Positions 1,201-32,500 of a DNA stretch of 32,500 bases are shown one piece after another. The stretch's first letter is position 1. Every line of letters starts with the position of its first letter. A model generated the notes under the pieces. It was not told the origin of the DNA. It saw only the letters and a list, made by a program, of their open reading frames with translations, and searched no databases. Source of the stretch: a virus; the IMG/VR virus record IMGVR_UViG_3300007735_000620, positions 1 through 32,500 of that record; one strand, 5' to 3'. The position numbers and the translations under genes are program-made.

Positions 1201-1239
1201 GGAACGTCATAGTGGAACGTCAGAATGGAACGTCAGAAT
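1201..1239. repeat. Three 13-bp tandem repeats across the end of the initiator gene
   Basis: The unit GGAACGTCA plus four bases (TAGT, GAAT, GAAT) occurs three times in a row. The array covers the last six codons and the stop of the initiator gene (1220-1222) and the gap to the next gene. Thirteen is not a multiple of three, so the array cannot expand inside the coding frame without shifting it. Confidence 0.9.
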
Positions 1240-2233
1240 CGTCGAGGTCTGGCTGCTGCGCTGCAAGCCACGCTTCCGCTTCGGCGTTCTCGCGTGCAAT
1301 GCGTGCGGCTGCGGCTGCTGCCCGTCGACCGCTGGGGCTCTGCGCTTGGCGCTGCACCCAAGCGGGTGCTGGCTGGTCGGGCTGCTGCTCCGCAAGCTCC
1401 GCTGGTGTAGGCGCTTGCGCTCCGGTCCAGGTGCGGCGCAGCGCGTACTCGGGATGGCGCAGCACACAAGCAAGGTCGACCGTCCGGTCGGCGCTTGGGT
1501 TGCGGCTGTCTTCCCCTCGATGCCACGCCGCTGCAGGGTCATGCAGTAGCCAGACCATCGCGTCGTACAAGTCTTGGGCTGGCACCTTGGCAAGCACCGT
1601 GCGCACCTTGGGCACCCATGTTGCAGCGCTCAGCCCTCGCCCTCCGGCATGACGGCTTAGGCGCAGCTCTTCAAGGCGCGCAAAGCAGTGCTCGGCTTCG
1701 CTGCGTTCGCGCTGTGCTGCTGTCGGTGCTGTCGGTTCCGCTGTCGCTTGCGCCTTCTTGCGGCGCTTGGTCGGCGCAGCCGACATGCTCTCTTCTGGCG
1801 GGTTCAGTGGTGGGTTCTCTGGCGGGTTCTCTGGGGGGTTTGGGTGCCACACTGACACCGGGGGGTGTCGCTCTGACACCGGGGGGTGCCACACTGACAC
1901 CGGGGGGTGTCGCTCTGACACCGGGGGTGTCTCTGTGACACCGGGGGTGTCGCTCTGACACCCCCCCTCAACCTTGAGCGCAGCCAAGTGCAGCACGTAG
2001 GTTGGCGTCACCCGCTCTGGCACGTAGTGCGCAGTCAACAGGCCGGTTGCTTCGAGCGCACGCAAGGCACGCTGCACTGTGCGCTCCGACCATCCAGCAC
2101 GGCGGCACAAGGAGCGCAGCGAAGGCCAGCACCGCCCGCTGTCGTCTGCAAAGGACCACAGCGCCAGCGCGGTTGCAAGCTCGACCCCTTCGAGGTCGCT
2201 GTCCATAAGTGTACGGGCATCAAGCTGGCGCAT
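1220..2233 (-). CDS. Winged-helix replication initiator (lambda O-like) with iteron-encoding linker
   Basis: This encodes 337 residues in three parts. Residues about 17-80 form a winged helix-turn-helix (CWPSLRSLCRRAGWSERTVQ, then RALRALEATGLLTAHY), the layout of phage replication O and related HTH proteins. Residues about 90-148 are a low-complexity linker with PPVSERH/PPVSVWH heptads and NPPE repeats. Residues 150-337 are a basic then helical, alanine-rich region ending in DLDDSDVPF, like the acidic tip of bacterial SSB. The linker DNA carries five palindromes, as the lambda origin lies inside gene O. The likely job is origin binding and recruitment of host replication proteins. The start is uncertain: the ATG at 2233 has no clear Shine-Dalgarno, and ATG at 2204 is an alternative. 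A transcriptional regulator is the other possibility. Confidence 0.75.
   Translation of the reverse strand: MRQLDARTLMDSDLEGVELATALALWSFADDSGRCWPSLRSLCRRAGWSERTVQRALRALEATGLLTAHYVPERVTPTYVLHLAALKVEGGCQSDTPGVTETPPVSERHPPVSVWHPPVSERHPPVSVWHPNPPENPPENPPLNPPEESMSAAPTKRRKKAQATAEPTAPTAAQRERSEAEHCFARLEELRLSRHAGGRGLSAATWVPKVRTVLAKVPAQDLYDAMVWLLHDPAAAWHRGEDSRNPSADRTVDLACVLRHPEYALRRTWTGAQAPTPAELAEQQPDQPAPAWVQRQAQSPSGRRAAAAAARIARENAEAEAWLAAQQPDLDDSDVPF
1793..1840. repeat. Four 12-bp tandem repeats (NPPE codons)
   Basis: Four units related to CTCTGGCGGGTT lie end to end and encode Asn-Pro-Pro-Glu/Leu on the minus strand. They adjoin the palindrome array and together with it form about 170 bp of repetitive DNA inside the initiator gene. 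Confidence 0.85.
1843..1962. repeat. Array of five palindromic iterons, candidate replication origin
   Basis: The palindrome GACACC-(G)3-4-GGTGTC occurs at 1854-1869, 1875-1890 (one base off), 1896-1911, 1917-1931 and 1937-1951. Half sites flank it at 1843-1848 and 1957-1962. Spacing is 21, 21, then about 20 bp, roughly two helical turns, so all sites face the same side of the DNA. Because two spacings are 20 bp, the same unit is read in all three frames of the host gene. Binding sites inside the initiator gene match the known lambda arrangement; origin function here is inference. Confidence 0.7.
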
Positions 2234-9539: not shown

Positions 9540-9569
9540 CTGGTAGCTGGCGTGCTCAGTGTATGTCAA
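9540..9569 (-). promoter_or_regulatory. Weak possible promoter before the fibre and lysis genes
   Basis: A consensus TTGACA (9564-9569, minus strand) overlaps the stop of the giant gene, and TACCAG lies 18 bases on (9540-9545). The -10 match is poor, and TTGACA could be chance, as TTGA is formed by the stop codon. If real it would give the lysis genes extra expression. Confidence 0.25.
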
Positions 9570-12500
9570 TCTCTTGGCGTCTGCACCTTGATCTGCTGCT
9601 GTTGTAGGCGGATTGCCTTTTGGATGGCGCCCATCTGGCTCTGCGCACCAAGCGGAGTTTCAAGTCCGAACGCAAAGCCGAACGTGGTCGGCAAGCCGCG
9701 GCGCTTGGGGTCGATGTAGTCGCTGACGTTGTACGTCAGGCCCATCTTGGTGTAGTCCTCCATCGTGCGCTGGAAGCCCAGGGTCTGCAGCACAGCCATG
9801 TCGCGGATAAAGCGCGCATGGTCCTGCGTGCTCTGGAACCGATACTCAACTTTGCCCAGGAACGGTGCCGCTGGGTCTTGCGCTTCAAGGCGACCTGACT
9901 TGCGCTCTTCGTCGCGCGCTACGGGCACGATGTTGTACTCTTCTTTGAGCCAAGGCCACAGCACATCGGGGCTGTTCTCAATCGCGTAGGCAACCCATAC
10001 GTCGTCGACCTTCTGGCCACGCCCTGTGTTGCTGGGCCGGGCAAGCGCGTCGGCCATCACCATGTCCACCAACGGCGTCAACGATTCGTTGGCAACCGCT
10101 TGCGCAAGCGTGCCGGGCGGAATGTCCGGCGCACCAACCTGCAGCCCATGCGCGGCGAATCGCACAAGGTCGCCGTACATGCTGAGCGCTGGATTGGTTG
10201 GCCCGTACAAGCGCGAAGCCGCGGTCTGATCGAAGATTTTGGTGTTGCCGATCGGCAGACGAAAGCGCGTATGGTCGACGTTCAACTCGTCGTCCATCTG
10301 CTTTTGCAGGTCGCGGTGCAGCAACAGCGTGCGATTCAACGTGTCGGGGTCGCGCGCCAGGGCTTCGATGACCTCGCGGGTCATTGCTTCGCGGAACGCC
10401 AGGAACATCACATAGCGGTTCAATCCGCCGCTGTACCGCACGTTGCCGTAGTCGAGCACGCTGTTGCGGGCAAGCTGCGCAGCTTGCGGTGCAGTCAAGC
10501 CTTCCTGCAGTGCGGTTGCAAAGACGTTCTGGCGGAACGCGCGGTCTGTCGCGTTGGCCGCATACTGCCAGAATCCAGTACGGGTCGGGTCCATGTTGCG
10601 CAACAGGTACTGTCGCAACGCTGGCGCCTTGACGCCCTCTGCGGTCAGTCGTGCATCGCGTGCCAAGTCGCGGGCGAACGCGTTGGCGAACTCCAGGCCG
10701 CCACGCGTCAGGCTGATGTTGTGCTCGCGCATCAACTGGTCAAGCTCGCCGCGCGTGATGGGCTGGCCAGTCCGCGTGGTGAACAGCACCTCGTCGAGCG
10801 CTCCAGGGTTGGAGCCAAGGCTGTTGACCAGTGGACGCCGCAACACCTCGGGGAGTTGTGCTGAAGCTTGCAGCGCGACCTCGCCAGCTTGCGCAGTGGC
10901 ACCGCCACGCGGGCGCAGGTAGCGGATGGCACCAGTGGTGCCCAACGTGGTCGCGATAATCAGCGGTGCGGTGATCAGGTTCGTGCCCAAGTAGCGCGTG
11001 TTGGGCAAAGGCAACGGCACAGGAATGGGCTGGCCGCCGGTCGTTTCATCGCTGAAGATGTAGTAGCCGCCACCAAGCAGACCAGCCGCGCCGATTGTAC
11101 GGGGCAAGCTCAGGGTGTCAAGCAGCACCTGCAGCACGTATTCGCCAGCCGCACCAGCTTCACCACCAAGCGCACGCTGCAGCTTTTCGCTGCGCTGTAT
11201 GGCGTCAAGGTTCTCCGCAAGCTTGCCGTCCTTGCTGGCAGCTTGCAGGTTTGCAAGCGCTTGCATGAAGTCCTGGCCAGCCACGCCGAAGCGCGGATCG
11301 TCAGGGTTGATCTGGTCGACCAGTCCGGTCATCGCCTTGCGCGTCTGCTCCAGGTCTGGCGCCCATCCATAAGCGCGGCTGTTGGCTTGCATCTCAAGCA
11401 CGGCAGGCTCAACGAAAGACTGCAGCGCGTTGCGCAACAGCGCCTTCCGCATGACCTCGATGACTTCTTTGTACGACAGACCGCTGCGTTGCGCGTTCTC
11501 GATGGCTGCGATCAAAACCCCATCGTCGGGGCTGACAATCGACCGCGCCATGGCCGTCTGGCCTTGCTCAATCAGCAACTGCAGCGCCTTGGTGGTCGCC
11601 ATCTTCTCAAAGAACAACAGATTGAGCTTGGGGTCGTCCAGACCTTCATACAGAACCGCCCGCAAGTCAGGGGCGCGATCGCCGTTCTCCAGCATTTTGC
11701 CGTAAACGTAGTTGATAATGTCTGTCTTTGCGGCTGGCGTCAGGTTTCGCCATGCGCGCAAGGTCAACTGGTCCAAGGATTCGCTGAGCGGGCCACGCGC
11801 CGTGCGTTGAAACGGCGTTCCTGGCACCGTGTCTGCTGCGCCAGCCACCGATGCTGCGCTGGCGCGAAACAGCTCTTGCTCTGCCGTCCGCATTGCCATG
11901 CGCTCTGCACGTGCAGGCAACACGCCGCTTCTGAGTGCCGCTGCACGGGTCAAGTCTGCAAGCAGCGTGGCTCTTGCTTCTTCCGCTGCATACTGCGTGC
12001 GAAGCAAGCGGTCAGGGCTGTCGGTAAACTGGCCAACGCTCAAGTCGCCACGCATCCATGGGTTCGCGTCAAGCATCGCTGTGGCTTCGCGGGCCACGAT
12101 GCGCTGACGGTCCATGCCCATCGCCCATGCTGCAGCAGTGTCGAGCACTGCATCATTCAGCAATCGCACCGGGCCAAGGTTGCGCGGGTCTTGCTTGCCC
12201 ATCCATTGAAAGAACCCAGCGATGGCGTCGCCATAGGGTACTGCAGGTCGAGCAAGGCCGCGCATGTCAAGCTCAGGGTTGTCCTTGCGGATGCGCGCAA
12301 GAACGTCGCGGAAGCTCTGCAGTGTGACTGGAATCAAGGTCTGATTGCCAGCCGCATCAGTGGTCACAATGTAGCGCCGCAGTGCATTTTCATCGACGCC
12401 GACCAGTCGGCTGAAGATGGTCGGGCCAAAGAACGTACGCAGCAAAGCAGCCCAAGCGCCAGCCTGCACCTCTTCAACGGCCATGGTCTGCGCCTGCTGC

Positions 12501-15500
12501 TTCGCCTGGGCAATGACACCACCGCTGACCTGTGAACCCAAGCCGCCCGCTGCTTTGCCAGCGCGTTGCTGGTACGCGACCGTCGACCAAGCATCAGTCT
12601 CGGCCATGCCTTGCGCCACAAGGTCATCAACCCGGCGCTGTAGTGCTGCGGTAGCGTCGGTAGCCGCGGCTGCAATGCGTCGTTGCAGCACGGTGTTGAA
12701 CGCTGACTCTGCATCAGTGCGCAGCGCTTCAGCGCGTACCTCTCGCTGGAACTGGTCAGGAATAGCTGCGACGGCCTCTTCAATCTTGCGGCCACGCTGC
12801 TGTGTGATGAACGGCGTTTGGTCCTTGAAGGTCGTCCTGTAGGCGGTGTAGTCAATCTTGGGGAACTTCTTGGATGCCTTCAGTACGGCGCTGCCCAAGA
12901 TGTTCTTTGTGATTGCAAGCGCTTGCGAAGGAACAGTGAACACGCTGGGTTCACGCGCTTCTGTCAGGGGCCGGGCTTGTGCGACAGCGCGTTCGCCGGT
13001 CGCCAGCCCTGGCACGCGCTCTTGTGCTGCTGACAGCAGACCCAAGCCCACGCTGGGCTGGGCCGCGCGCTGCGTTTGCTCACCAGCCAACAGCGCTTCA
13101 GCAGCCGTTTCGCCCAAAACGTCACGGTATGCAGCCGTCAACGCTGCATCTGTCAGGAAGTGGTGCTCGCTCTCCGTCAAGGGACGGTTGGCTTCGAGCG
13201 CATCGAGCACAGCGCGACGCGCTGGTGAACGCGCGATGGTGTTGGGGCCGAAGATTTCGTCGCGCGCGAATCGGGAATCCATGTCCCAACGGAACACCAT
13301 CGTCGGGCGACCGTTTACAGTCGGGCCAACTTGCGCGACGAACAGCGGACCAGCGCCGCGCCCATAGCCGTTGAACGTGTCGCTGACCTTGTTGAGCACA
13401 TCGGGCGAAAGCTTCTGGCGCGGCACCATCAACGTATTGGTGACCAGCACCAAGTCTTCAGGCACAAGGTTCTCGAACGTCGACGCCACAGCGCGCGAAC
13501 CGGCACCAAGCGCAGCTTCGCGCACAAGGTCCGGCGCTGTGTTGATCAACTCGTCGCCACCAAGACGGCGCGCAAAGCTCTCGGCGACAGGGCCGCCGCG
13601 CGGCAATCCGCGCTGTAGCTCTTGCCCGAACGCATGCAGAGACTGCATCATCGGCGCGTTGTTGCTGATGGGCAGGTATTTGGCGTTGGGCTGCAATCGA
13701 GACAGAGCCTTCGCAAAATCGCCAGGGTTAGCCACGCCATCGGCGATGTACGCAAGCTCGTCCATCAAGTCGCCTGCGTTGCTCGAACCGTATGTCTGCC
13801 GCAACGCGCTGCGCTGCGCTGGCGTCATGCCTGCAAGCTCGTTGATGTCTTGATCTTCGAGGATCGCGAGAATCCTACGGGCTTGCTCTGCTTCTTCCAA
13901 GTCTGCGTTGCGCAGCACTGTCTCGATGGCTGGACGGTACACTGATGCCTTGAAGCTCAGCAGTGCATCTTGCAGAGCATCGTTGTCCAACCGCCCCGTG
14001 CCCCATGGCACAGTGTCGGCCATCGTGTCGGCGACGCCCAGGGTTCGCAAGAACTCGCGACCTGCAGACGAATCGCCAGCCATGGTGCGCAAGTCGCCGA
14101 CCGTTGCGTTGGGGTCGTTGATGATCTGCCGCGCGATCAAGTACGGGCTCAGCGTGTCCTTGGCCACAGCATCGGCCAGCACAGTCTTGATCTCGGATCG
14201 GTCCATCAGAACGTCAAGCACTGGCTTCTCGACATCGCCTTCATCGAGCAAGTCTTGCCCTGCTCGAATGAGTCGCACCTTCTTGCTGTACTCGACCGGA
14301 TTGGCCACGAAGTCGGCAGCGCGTGCGCCGGTTTTCATCGCCTCCGCTGCCCGCAATAGCTGCGCCGCTTTGACTGTTTCGCCAGCCTGCACCGCTTGTG
14401 CGGCTGCACCAGCAGCACGCGCTGCGCCACCAACAGCAGCCGCTCTTGCGGCGGTTCCCGTAGTCCGCGCAACCTTGCCAAGCGCAGAGATAGGCCCGAT
14501 GCCATAGATCATCTCGGCACCAGCGCCCAGCACCAGTGGTGCGTACAGCGCAGATTGCCCGATCAAGCTTTCGTCTATGTTCTTGAGCCGTTCGCCGGTT
14601 CCCTGGTCCAGCGTGTTGAACGCACCGCTTGCAAGCTCTTCTGTGTAGGCGGGAATGCTGTAAAGTTCGTCGCCCAAGAACCGGCCTTTGGCAAGGCTGG
14701 TCACAACGTCGCCCAAGTAGGTCTCGGTCTCGCTGGCTCCGCGCATGCCGGTCGGGTCGATCATCGACAAGCCTTTGCGGTTGATGCCTTGGAACGGCAT
14801 GGGGATGCCAGTCGGAACCGCTGTGCCGCCGATAATGCCGGATGTCACATCCTTTGCATCAGCCGCGCTCATGCCCATGCGCTGCAATGCGCTGGTCACA
14901 AAGTCGTTGACCTTGAACGCGAACTGGTCTGGATTCGTCGCGTTGCCTTCATCGTCGACATCATAGAACAACGGCAATCCAAGCACCGCTTCGTTTACCA
15001 TCGTGCTGATCAGTCCAGTCTGACGGATCGCTGCGCCCAACGGGGTCTCGATGCCAACACCCGTGCCAGGGTCGACGGTCGACAAGACGTTGCGCAGGTA
15101 CGGATCGGTCTCTTCAGCAATCTGCTGGCGCACATCAGCAGCGTATTCGTCGGTGTACAGCAGCGAACCTGGAATGTCTTGGAACGCAAGCTCGCGCTGA
15201 AGTGCGCGCGTCTGCCGCGCCTTCGCTGCAATGTCAGGACTGATGATCTGCTGCCGGGCAAAGGTCTCGATGACCTGCTCTGCTGGCGTTGCAGGGCGCC
15301 GCTGCCCGCTGGGCTCTACATACGTGGACGGGTCGGTGCGGAAGTCGATGCGCGATTCGCGAAAGAACGGCGGGATGGGCAGCATCGAGCCGATACCACC
15401 TTCGCCACGCGTGGTTGGGTCGCCCTCTGGCCCAACCCTACGCGCAAGCACATCAACGGATGCCTTGCGTGCCGCTTCCTTTGCGCCTTCAACGGTGTAG

Positions 15501-16057
15501 CCATACGCGATGTACTGGCGAATCAGGTCGCTTTCCATCTGGTCAAGCTGTTGGCGTAGCTCGCCAGCCATCTGCGGTTCATCGACGGGCCGACCGTACA
15601 ACGGCTCCCCAGCTTGCAGATTTGCATCAGCAGCGCTTGGCACCATGTCGCTGCCGAACGGCACAACAATGCGCACGCGTGGTTTTGCAGGCTCGACCGG
15701 CATGCCAGGGGCTTGCAGGTCGGCAAGCTGCTCGTCCGTCAACGTGTAGCCCAGGTACTCGTTGAGCTGGCTGGCTGGCGCTCGCCCTGCCCGCACATCG
15801 GCTTCAAGCCGGGCTTGGTATTCCGCCGCGGCTTCATCCTGCTGTGCCTCAGGGATGAACTCTACAGGCTGCTCAGCGGGCGCTGGAGCGCGTGCAGGTC
15901 TGCGCGCGGCTGCAGGCATGAGTGCCACGCTGGGCGCGGCTGTAGGCGCTGTAGCGCTGGGCAGGGCGGCAGCCTTGGCGCGTAGCTCCGCTGCGTCTGC
16001 AGATCGACCAAGCGCTTCATACCTGTCGGCAAGCTTCAGGTAGTGTTCGCGGTTCAT
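9566..16057 (-). CDS. Giant internal virion protein, 2163 residues
   Basis: This gene fills a fifth of the window. The N-terminal ~140 residues are Ala/Pro-rich after a helical start (MNREHYLKLADRYEALGRSA). Most of the rest is helical and Ala/Arg/Leu-rich. A hydrophobic pair near residues 1650-1700 (AAGLLGGGYYIF, then LITAPLIIATTLGTTGAI) could cross a membrane; an alanine-rich stretch near 520-550 is a weaker candidate. The C-terminal region (APQAAQLARNSVLDYGNVRY and following) resembles ends of large polyvalent phage proteins. Size and order after two other internal-protein candidates suggest an ejected protein like T7 gp16, which helps move DNA across the envelope. I found no lysozyme, peptidase or RNA polymerase motif, so an enzyme role is not supported. 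Confidence 0.75.
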   Translation of the reverse strand: MNREHYLKLADRYEALGRSADAAELRAKAAALPSATAPTAAPSVALMPAAARRPARAPAPAEQPVEFIPEAQQDEAAAEYQARLEADVRAGRAPASQLNEYLGYTLTDEQLADLQAPGMPVEPAKPRVRIVVPFGSDMVPSAADANLQAGEPLYGRPVDEPQMAGELRQQLDQMESDLIRQYIAYGYTVEGAKEAARKASVDVLARRVGPEGDPTTRGEGGIGSMLPIPPFFRESRIDFRTDPSTYVEPSGQRRPATPAEQVIETFARQQIISPDIAAKARQTRALQRELAFQDIPGSLLYTDEYAADVRQQIAEETDPYLRNVLSTVDPGTGVGIETPLGAAIRQTGLISTMVNEAVLGLPLFYDVDDEGNATNPDQFAFKVNDFVTSALQRMGMSAADAKDVTSGIIGGTAVPTGIPMPFQGINRKGLSMIDPTGMRGASETETYLGDVVTSLAKGRFLGDELYSIPAYTEELASGAFNTLDQGTGERLKNIDESLIGQSALYAPLVLGAGAEMIYGIGPISALGKVARTTGTAARAAAVGGAARAAGAAAQAVQAGETVKAAQLLRAAEAMKTGARAADFVANPVEYSKKVRLIRAGQDLLDEGDVEKPVLDVLMDRSEIKTVLADAVAKDTLSPYLIARQIINDPNATVGDLRTMAGDSSAGREFLRTLGVADTMADTVPWGTGRLDNDALQDALLSFKASVYRPAIETVLRNADLEEAEQARRILAILEDQDINELAGMTPAQRSALRQTYGSSNAGDLMDELAYIADGVANPGDFAKALSRLQPNAKYLPISNNAPMMQSLHAFGQELQRGLPRGGPVAESFARRLGGDELINTAPDLVREAALGAGSRAVASTFENLVPEDLVLVTNTLMVPRQKLSPDVLNKVSDTFNGYGRGAGPLFVAQVGPTVNGRPTMVFRWDMDSRFARDEIFGPNTIARSPARRAVLDALEANRPLTESEHHFLTDAALTAAYRDVLGETAAEALLAGEQTQRAAQPSVGLGLLSAAQERVPGLATGERAVAQARPLTEAREPSVFTVPSQALAITKNILGSAVLKASKKFPKIDYTAYRTTFKDQTPFITQQRGRKIEEAVAAIPDQFQREVRAEALRTDAESAFNTVLQRRIAAAATDATAALQRRVDDLVAQGMAETDAWSTVAYQQRAGKAAGGLGSQVSGGVIAQAKQQAQTMAVEEVQAGAWAALLRTFFGPTIFSRLVGVDENALRRYIVTTDAAGNQTLIPVTLQSFRDVLARIRKDNPELDMRGLARPAVPYGDAIAGFFQWMGKQDPRNLGPVRLLNDAVLDTAAAWAMGMDRQRIVAREATAMLDANPWMRGDLSVGQFTDSPDRLLRTQYAAEEARATLLADLTRAAALRSGVLPARAERMAMRTAEQELFRASAASVAGAADTVPGTPFQRTARGPLSESLDQLTLRAWRNLTPAAKTDIINYVYGKMLENGDRAPDLRAVLYEGLDDPKLNLLFFEKMATTKALQLLIEQGQTAMARSIVSPDDGVLIAAIENAQRSGLSYKEVIEVMRKALLRNALQSFVEPAVLEMQANSRAYGWAPDLEQTRKAMTGLVDQINPDDPRFGVAGQDFMQALANLQAASKDGKLAENLDAIQRSEKLQRALGGEAGAAGEYVLQVLLDTLSLPRTIGAAGLLGGGYYIFSDETTGGQPIPVPLPLPNTRYLGTNLITAPLIIATTLGTTGAIRYLRPRGGATAQAGEVALQASAQLPEVLRRPLVNSLGSNPGALDEVLFTTRTGQPITRGELDQLMREHNISLTRGGLEFANAFARDLARDARLTAEGVKAPALRQYLLRNMDPTRTGFWQYAANATDRAFRQNVFATALQEGLTAPQAAQLARNSVLDYGNVRYSGGLNRYVMFLAFREAMTREVIEALARDPDTLNRTLLLHRDLQKQMDDELNVDHTRFRLPIGNTKIFDQTAASRLYGPTNPALSMYGDLVRFAAHGLQVGAPDIPPGTLAQAVANESLTPLVDMVMADALARPSNTGRGQKVDDVWVAYAIENSPDVLWPWLKEEYNIVPVARDEERKSGRLEAQDPAAPFLGKVEYRFQSTQDHARFIRDMAVLQTLGFQRTMEDYTKMGLTYNVSDYIDPKRRGLPTTFGFAFGLETPLGAQSQMGAIQKAIRLQQQQIKVQTPRD

Positions 16058-32273: not shown

Positions 32274-32354
32274 GTTGTTCCTGTCTCCTGTCGTTGTTGT
32301 GTTGTGACCGTTGGGCTGGGCGCTCTTGCGGCGGCGCCCTTGCCGGTGTGCTGC

Positions 32355-32500
32355 CTACTCGGCCCACTCGGCCCACTCGGCCCACTCGGCCCACTCGGCC
32401 CACCAGTCACCAGCGCGCGTGACGTAGACGCGCACGCCAGCGCGCGAAAGCGCGGTGCAAAAATCAAGCACCTGCTCGTCGGTCATCGCGTCAAGGTCGG
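32355..32500 (-). CDS. Partial second copy of the WAE-repeat gene
   Basis: This is the C-terminal part of the same gene as 26-220; its start lies beyond the window. It ends in five WAE units (three in the left copy) before the stop at 32355-32357. If the window wraps round a circle it is the same gene as an allele, not a second gene. Confidence 0.75.
   Translation of the reverse strand, partial: DLDAMTDEQVLDFCTALSRAGVRVYVTRAGDWWAEWAEWAEWAEWAE
32358..32402. repeat. 9-bp tandem repeat, five copies (WAE codons)
   Basis: Five exact CTCGGCCCA units lie here against three at 29-55. The 18-bp difference keeps the reading frame. Confidence 0.95.

Follow-up and report, generated by a model that had tools for sequence, protein, structure and literature searches.

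Genome and initiator gene

The window analysed here, 32,500 nt in length, is the whole of the IMG/VR virus record IMGVR_UViG_3300007735_000620. It belongs to a tailed phage, with matches to terminase, portal-like, major head and internal virion proteins, all on the minus strand, and to Erf, RuvC-like and exonuclease VIII-like proteins on the plus strand. The first ~168 bases of the window recur at 32332-32500, and this recurrence indicates that the genome is circular or terminally redundant. The two end copies differ in a 9-bp repeat, GCCCACTCG, which is present 3.7 times in one and 5.7 times in the other; this variable tandem repeat sits within a small gene at the window ends. A single open frame of 2163 aa (9566-16057, minus strand) occupies about one fifth of the genome and probably encodes a large virion protein. 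When the portal was used as a query no relative was found among phages.

The gene of interest here encodes P0001 (Table 1), the N terminus of which matches the Pfam family HTH_36 (PF13730) at 6e-13, over the curated cut-off, while the best PHROG is number 391, “replication initiation O-like” (8e-17). In the AlphaFold model the winged helix consists of helices and a two-strand wing (mean pLDDT 88). Structure comparison places the fold near a phage replication protein O (TM 0.80) and also near PDB 4pt7, “Structure of initiator”, which is one among many winged helices. As a single query, P0001 recovered no relative among viral contigs. By analogy, the C-terminal part is proposed to contact the helicase loader or primosome, and the product of the next gene is possibly a partner of the initiator. 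Among Pfam and PHROGs matches, no helicase loader or helicase was identified beside the initiator.

Table 1. Features of the initiator locus (positions in the window).
Feature	Position	Strand	Remarks
Next gene, 121 aa	835..1200	-	no family match; kept beside the initiator in L188
Initiator gene P0001	1220..2233	-	337 aa; winged helix at the N terminus, then a linker encoded by repeats and a C-terminal part
C-terminal part of the initiator	1220..1790	-	proposed helicase loader/primosome contact, from domain plan and analogy with lambda O and pSK41 Rep
12-bp array, RAACC-NN-CCA x4	1796..1841	-	abuts the last iteron; kept in L188
Iteron array, six 17-bp dyads GGTGTC-N5-GACACC	1843..1962	- (gene); read on +	scans and conservation in L188
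Winged helix-turn-helix domain HTH_36, aa 14-66	2036..2194	-	Pfam match and AlphaFold model
Codons of Arg51-Thr52-Val53-Gln54-Arg55, recognition helix	2069..2083	-	helix 50-63 in the model; covariation with the half site

An iteron array within the gene

The linker of this O-like gene is encoded by a dense array of short inverted repeats. Read on the plus strand, 1843-1962 comprises 12 alternating half sites, 10 of which are exact GGTGTC or GACACC; the inexact ones are GGTGCC at 1843 and 1885, with one mismatch each. The exact hexamers occur 27 times in the 32.5-kb window, and 10 of these fall within 109 bp (1854-1962). The half sites form dyads that start at 1843, 1864, 1885, 1906, 1926 and 1946 (four of them perfect, the other two with a single mismatch), giving steps of 21, 21, 21, 20 and 20 bp.

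An earlier note on this DNA, made from the sequence alone, had described five GACACC-N3/4-GGTGTC palindromes. The array exists, and four of these palindromes are perfect, but the fifth (1885) has one mismatch, and this pairing was rejected as the basic unit, as its gap varies in relatives (0, 3, 4, 5, 6 and others). The GGTGTC-N5-GACACC pairing is the more constant one. Across 23 unrelated relatives its N5 gap is unchanged in 46 of 53 cases, a figure that holds partly by construction, since the scan pattern imposed one N5 dyad per locus; a gap of 5-6 bp between opposed half sites also recurs in families with other half sites. The reading of one unit in all three frames, by way of the two 20-bp steps, was confirmed (CQSDTPG, VTETPPV and SERHPPV in the peptide). 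The array is not due to chance, because 200,000 synonymous recodings of the same peptide with the phage's own codon usage yielded at most 6 half sites, compared with the 10 observed.

The only close homologue found lies on a Rhodobacteraceae MAG contig (RFQY01000135.1, here L188), where a protein with 64% amino acid identity to P0001 is encoded beside the same neighbour, with ERF nearby. The alignment of the two arrays is gap-free. Every one of the six GGTGTC and six CACC cores is retained, as are the 20/21-bp steps and the 12-bp array, and the differences comprise the N5 spacers and four of the six right halves, which read TGCACC instead of GACACC. L188 also has a 9-codon insertion preceding the array. 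At codons for identical amino acids, synonymous differences between the two genes number 5/28 within the array versus 100/167 elsewhere (p=5e-5), and all five lie at spacer bases; in the 12-bp array the count is 1/14 (p=1e-4). Both arrays are conserved at the level of DNA. A peptide kept while its palindromes are lost through synonymous changes had been named as evidence against selection on the DNA, and the opposite is seen in L188.

In-gene iterons in the PF13730 family

IMG/VR was scanned with the DNA motif alone (GGTGTC-N5-GACACC-N2-5-GGTGTC). This blind scan returned 33 contigs, and in 25 of them the array lay within an open frame with a PF13730 winged helix, compared with 0 of the 10 contigs returned by a permuted-motif control. 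A scan of 85,000 bacteria and archaea (one genome per species) gave 57 loci. Ten of these were inside PF13730 initiators, in records labelled Alphaproteobacteria, Mycobacterium, Polyangia and others; by a rough estimate, the remaining loci are near the chance level for a collection of that size. Across 23 protein clusters (<60% identity, a threshold that leaves them phylogenetically non-independent) the GGTGTC half is read in frames 0, 1 and 2 in 29, 28 and 24 cases. Since the frames are used nearly equally and the N5 gap is held, it is the DNA unit that has been kept and not the peptide. Palindromes thus persist while linker peptides differ, as had been suggested for this gene.

Homologues were also collected without reference to the iterons, using degenerate DNA patterns for a conserved domain peptide; the domain profile was derived from motif-bearing genes. 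In these two motif-blind, non-redundant sets, 29/40 and 20/30 genes (49/70) carry a 7-mer in at least 4 copies within the 300-nt linker, against a background of 2.9% and 4.9% of other windows on the same contigs. The iterons vary by lineage, often sharing GGTG (GGTGTC, GGTGAC, GGTGCA, GGTGAA). Same-strand spacing is mostly 21-23 bp, i.e. two helical turns, with 17 bp also common; where half sites are opposed, the distance between them is mostly 5-6 bp. Because motif-blind genes carry linker iterons of other sequences, the comparison indicates that in-gene iterons are a property of the PF13730 initiator family.

Two variants of this arrangement were encountered. The linkers of L122, L109, L088 and L125 contain long arrays (AAAGGGTGAAAT, AAAGGGTGACA) in which the iterons are mostly direct rather than palindromic, on the same plan. 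In L016 (5465-5549) and L027 (1366-1405), GGTGTC-N5-GACACC arrays are found outside any long open frame, beside very A+T-rich DNA, and these are possibly stand-alone origins of the same type.

Residue 55 and the half site

The sequence of the iteron covaries with that of the winged helix. A comparison of 53 non-redundant genes in which the half site is clear gave the strongest covariation at the helix column of Arg55 of P0001 (1.1 bits, z=12), and the base concerned is the sixth of the half site. Arg51 and Thr52 are the next-best columns, and the top three are all located within the recognition helix. Arg occupies position 55 in 38/38 genes with GGTGNC half sites versus 2/28 with other half sites. 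The rule was fixed at this point and then tested on two fresh scans that used iterons only. Among the matches listed, Arg was present in 89/89 GGGTGAC arrays versus 0/88 GGGTGCA arrays; when the matches listed were restricted to clusters new to the data, the counts were 36/36 versus 0/15 (p=3e-13).

P0001 itself agrees with the rule (R55 with GGTGTC), as do four isolated or named phages, Vibrio K67 (GGTGTC, Arg), Thermus Cumys (GGTGCA, Gln), D_HF5_3 (GGTGCA, Tyr) and Microcystis Mvi-Yong1342-1 (GGTGAA, Ala). In a tree built from the short domain each trait changes 19 times; only two independent pairs fall on supported branches, both concordant, leaving the support for independent switches of Arg and half site weak. 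The most economical reading of the covariation would be that every initiator binds the array carried by its own gene, with Arg55 reading the C:G pair at half-site position 6.

A second repeat element

The 12-bp array that the earlier note had placed next to the iterons is present (1794-1840), and its RAACC-NN-CCA units lie at 1832-1841, 1820-1829, 1808-1817 and 1796-1805, in 12-bp steps. It is GC-rich and strand-asymmetric. The earlier suggestion that it belongs with the iterons gains support from its conservation in L188 and from the repeats that relatives carry in this position. A de novo search for words enriched in homologues' linkers led to the element GAACC-A/G-TCA (GAACC-R-TCA); the 8-mer GAACCATC alone occurs in 29% of linkers versus about 0% of the background. 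GAACC-R-TCA is present in 32/40 and 17/30 (49/70) of the motif-blind genes versus about 1.5% of other windows, and it is repeated downstream of the iterons with a period of 10-14 bp. When IMG/VR was scanned for two tandem copies of this element only, 93 of 119 contigs, among the matches listed, had them within PF13730 initiators, on the coding strand and 89-303 nt past the domain.

All three reading frames are used by the tandem element (77/19/13 for frames 0, 1 and 2 among the matches listed), and because frame 0 is favoured, selection on the peptide (Glu-Pro-Ser) might contribute in part. A purely peptide-level element was set aside: codons are nearly fixed, and steps not divisible by three occur. 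Glu-Pro-Ser is encoded exactly as GAACCRTCA in 35/42 instances in linkers versus 18/106 elsewhere. The element is not tied to one host, since the Microcystis phage has it and the Thermus phage has an imperfect form. Short blastn searches for it in named phages returned chance-like matches only.

The 12-bp array of the window has only a relaxed form of GAACC-R-TCA. Genes with GGTGTC iterons in general rarely have the exact element (2/21; relaxed form 6/21), and a stretch richer in A+T is usually found in its position (19/23, p=2e-4). A junction rule by which CACCC is followed directly by RAACC was dropped, being true in only 21% of the cases with the exact element. We suggest that the 12-bp array may be the melting or strand-loading side of an origin.

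Relation to known origins

The plan of an origin inside its initiator gene is already known from lambda, Stx phages, SPP1, pSK41-type plasmids and pPR9. In lambda and Stx phages, O binds to iterons that lie midway in gene O, a neighbouring tract is required for unwinding, and O binds single-stranded DNA as well (PMC7466680). The lambda iterons are 18 bp long, start 20-24 bp apart and cover about codons 117-144 of O. The likeness to lambda drawn in the earlier note applies to this plan, in that palindromic iterons spaced by approximately two helical turns lie in the middle of the initiator gene in ori-lambda as in the window (PMC7466680). It does not extend to the protein: lambda O belongs to PF04492 (5.7e-36 for O itself, as a control), whereas P0001 belongs to PF13730 and has no match to PF04492 up to E=1. 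The iteron sequences also differ. The unwinding tract that follows the lambda iterons is A+T-rich, in contrast to the GC-rich, strand-asymmetric array in the window. Lambda has the helicase-loader gene P adjacent; the next gene in the phage described here (835-1200) gave no family match.

Gene 38 of SPP1, with oriL, similarly combines initiator-binding repeats within the initiator gene and an adjoining unwinding element (PMC6316719); the likeness is one of plan, and SPP1 has a second origin, oriR. Plasmids of the pSK41 type, with RepA_N initiators, have the origin inside rep, a winged-helix N-terminal domain and a dispensable linker encoded by the origin, and pPR9 encodes a chimeric initiator with a PF13730 domain and replicates autonomously (PMC5703833). 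These are staphylococcal plasmids, and RepA_N (PF06970) is absent from the Pfam matches of P0001 up to E=1. In the accessible part of a study of Stx phages, PF13730 proteins encoded near cI are reported as helix-turn-helix proteins, with no origin mentioned there (PMC8951638). No earlier account of PF13730-wide in-gene iterons, of the Arg55 rule or of GAACC-R-TCA was found in the literature covered, which included few subscription journals.

A candidate replication origin

Taken together, the comparative tests support the candidate origin that had been proposed within this gene, and origin activity is what we infer from them. Very probably, the replication start site of the phage lies inside its initiator gene, as in lambda. 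We hold with considerable confidence that the array represents the initiator-binding iterons of an origin located in the linker-coding stretch, in conjunction with the following mechanism. The winged helix of P0001 would bind 6-bp half sites through its recognition helix, with Arg55 reading the C:G pair at the sixth position of GGTGTC, and dimers would occupy the GGTGTC-N5-GACACC dyads on one face of the DNA, every two helical turns. The filled dyads might form a nucleoprotein complex resembling the lambda O-some. Such a complex could strain or open the adjoining 12-bp repeats, or allow the initiator or helicase to gain one strand there, and the C-terminal part of P0001 would then bring in the helicase machinery. 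Base composition counts against an origin: beside the array the A+T content barely exceeds that of the gene, unlike in lambda (37% AT in the 60 nt after the array versus 33% for the gene; the family average is ~8 points above the gene). Also on the opposing side are the TGCACC right halves of the one close homologue, the lack of a helicase or loader match next door and the weak tree support for independent switches. GC skew has no clear turn in the window, and was set aside as uninformative evidence for an origin. An RNA element was likewise set aside, there being no Rfam match.

Alternatively, the array might be an operator by which the protein shuts off transcription of its own gene or operon, with replication starting elsewhere. 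Many proteins with the fold of P0001 are repressors, and the covariation points to self-binding, which alone leaves origin activity unproven. We nevertheless consider an operator unlikely, given that the sites are ~270-390 bp into the gene and not at a promoter, and come after the domain in every lineage, that a second conserved element follows them, and that the PHROG and structural neighbours are replication proteins. Moreover, the experimentally studied cases of the same plan are origins (PMC7466680, PMC6316719, PMC5703833).

It is less probable still that the array serves mainly to titrate or handcuff the initiator for copy control or incompatibility, the real start being nearby. Iterons of plasmids do titrate and handcuff their initiators as well, and 12 half sites are a generous number, but lambda as a precedent and the conserved element next to the sites speak for a direct role as origin, and the two roles are mutually compatible. 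Hardly credible, and the least probable of these alternatives, is a peptide repeat, i.e. a proline-rich linker grown by slippage with the DNA similarity as a by-product. The linker is indeed Pro-rich and tandemly repeated, with similar heptads in L188. Against this stand the use of all three frames, the depletion of synonymous changes relative to L188, the failure of the recoding controls to reproduce the array, and the occurrence of the same DNA motif in unrelated proteins with different peptides.

The wider family might be read in the same manner. With slightly better than even confidence, we propose that PF13730 initiators constitute a large class in which each gene combines the domain with its own sites, that the recognition code can be read from sequence only (Arg55 for C at position 6), and that most members, for all the divergence of their iterons, share a host-constant GAACC-R-TCA element with a period of 10-14 bp, which would be a melting or strand-loading signal new with respect to lambda. 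The textbook case of lambda would then become a general rule open to computational checks, and a single gene of an uncultured phage would suffice to predict origin, initiator and recognition residue. Hundreds of matched pairs of protein and site would make a winged-helix recognition code directly testable, and the shared second element would be a defined target for studying DNA opening by phage initiators, also where the genome is GC-rich and lacks an A+T tract.

Other repeats near the initiator gene

Three 13-bp repeats (TGGAACGTCATAG once, TGGAACGTCAGAA twice) at 1200-1238 extend from the last part of the initiator gene into the beginning of its neighbour; none is reported at the corresponding place in L188. 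A 37-bp direct repeat (97%; 2517-2553 and 2582-2618) lies between the initiator gene and the divergent early genes of the plus strand, and its two copies are possibly tandem promoters or sites for a regulator.
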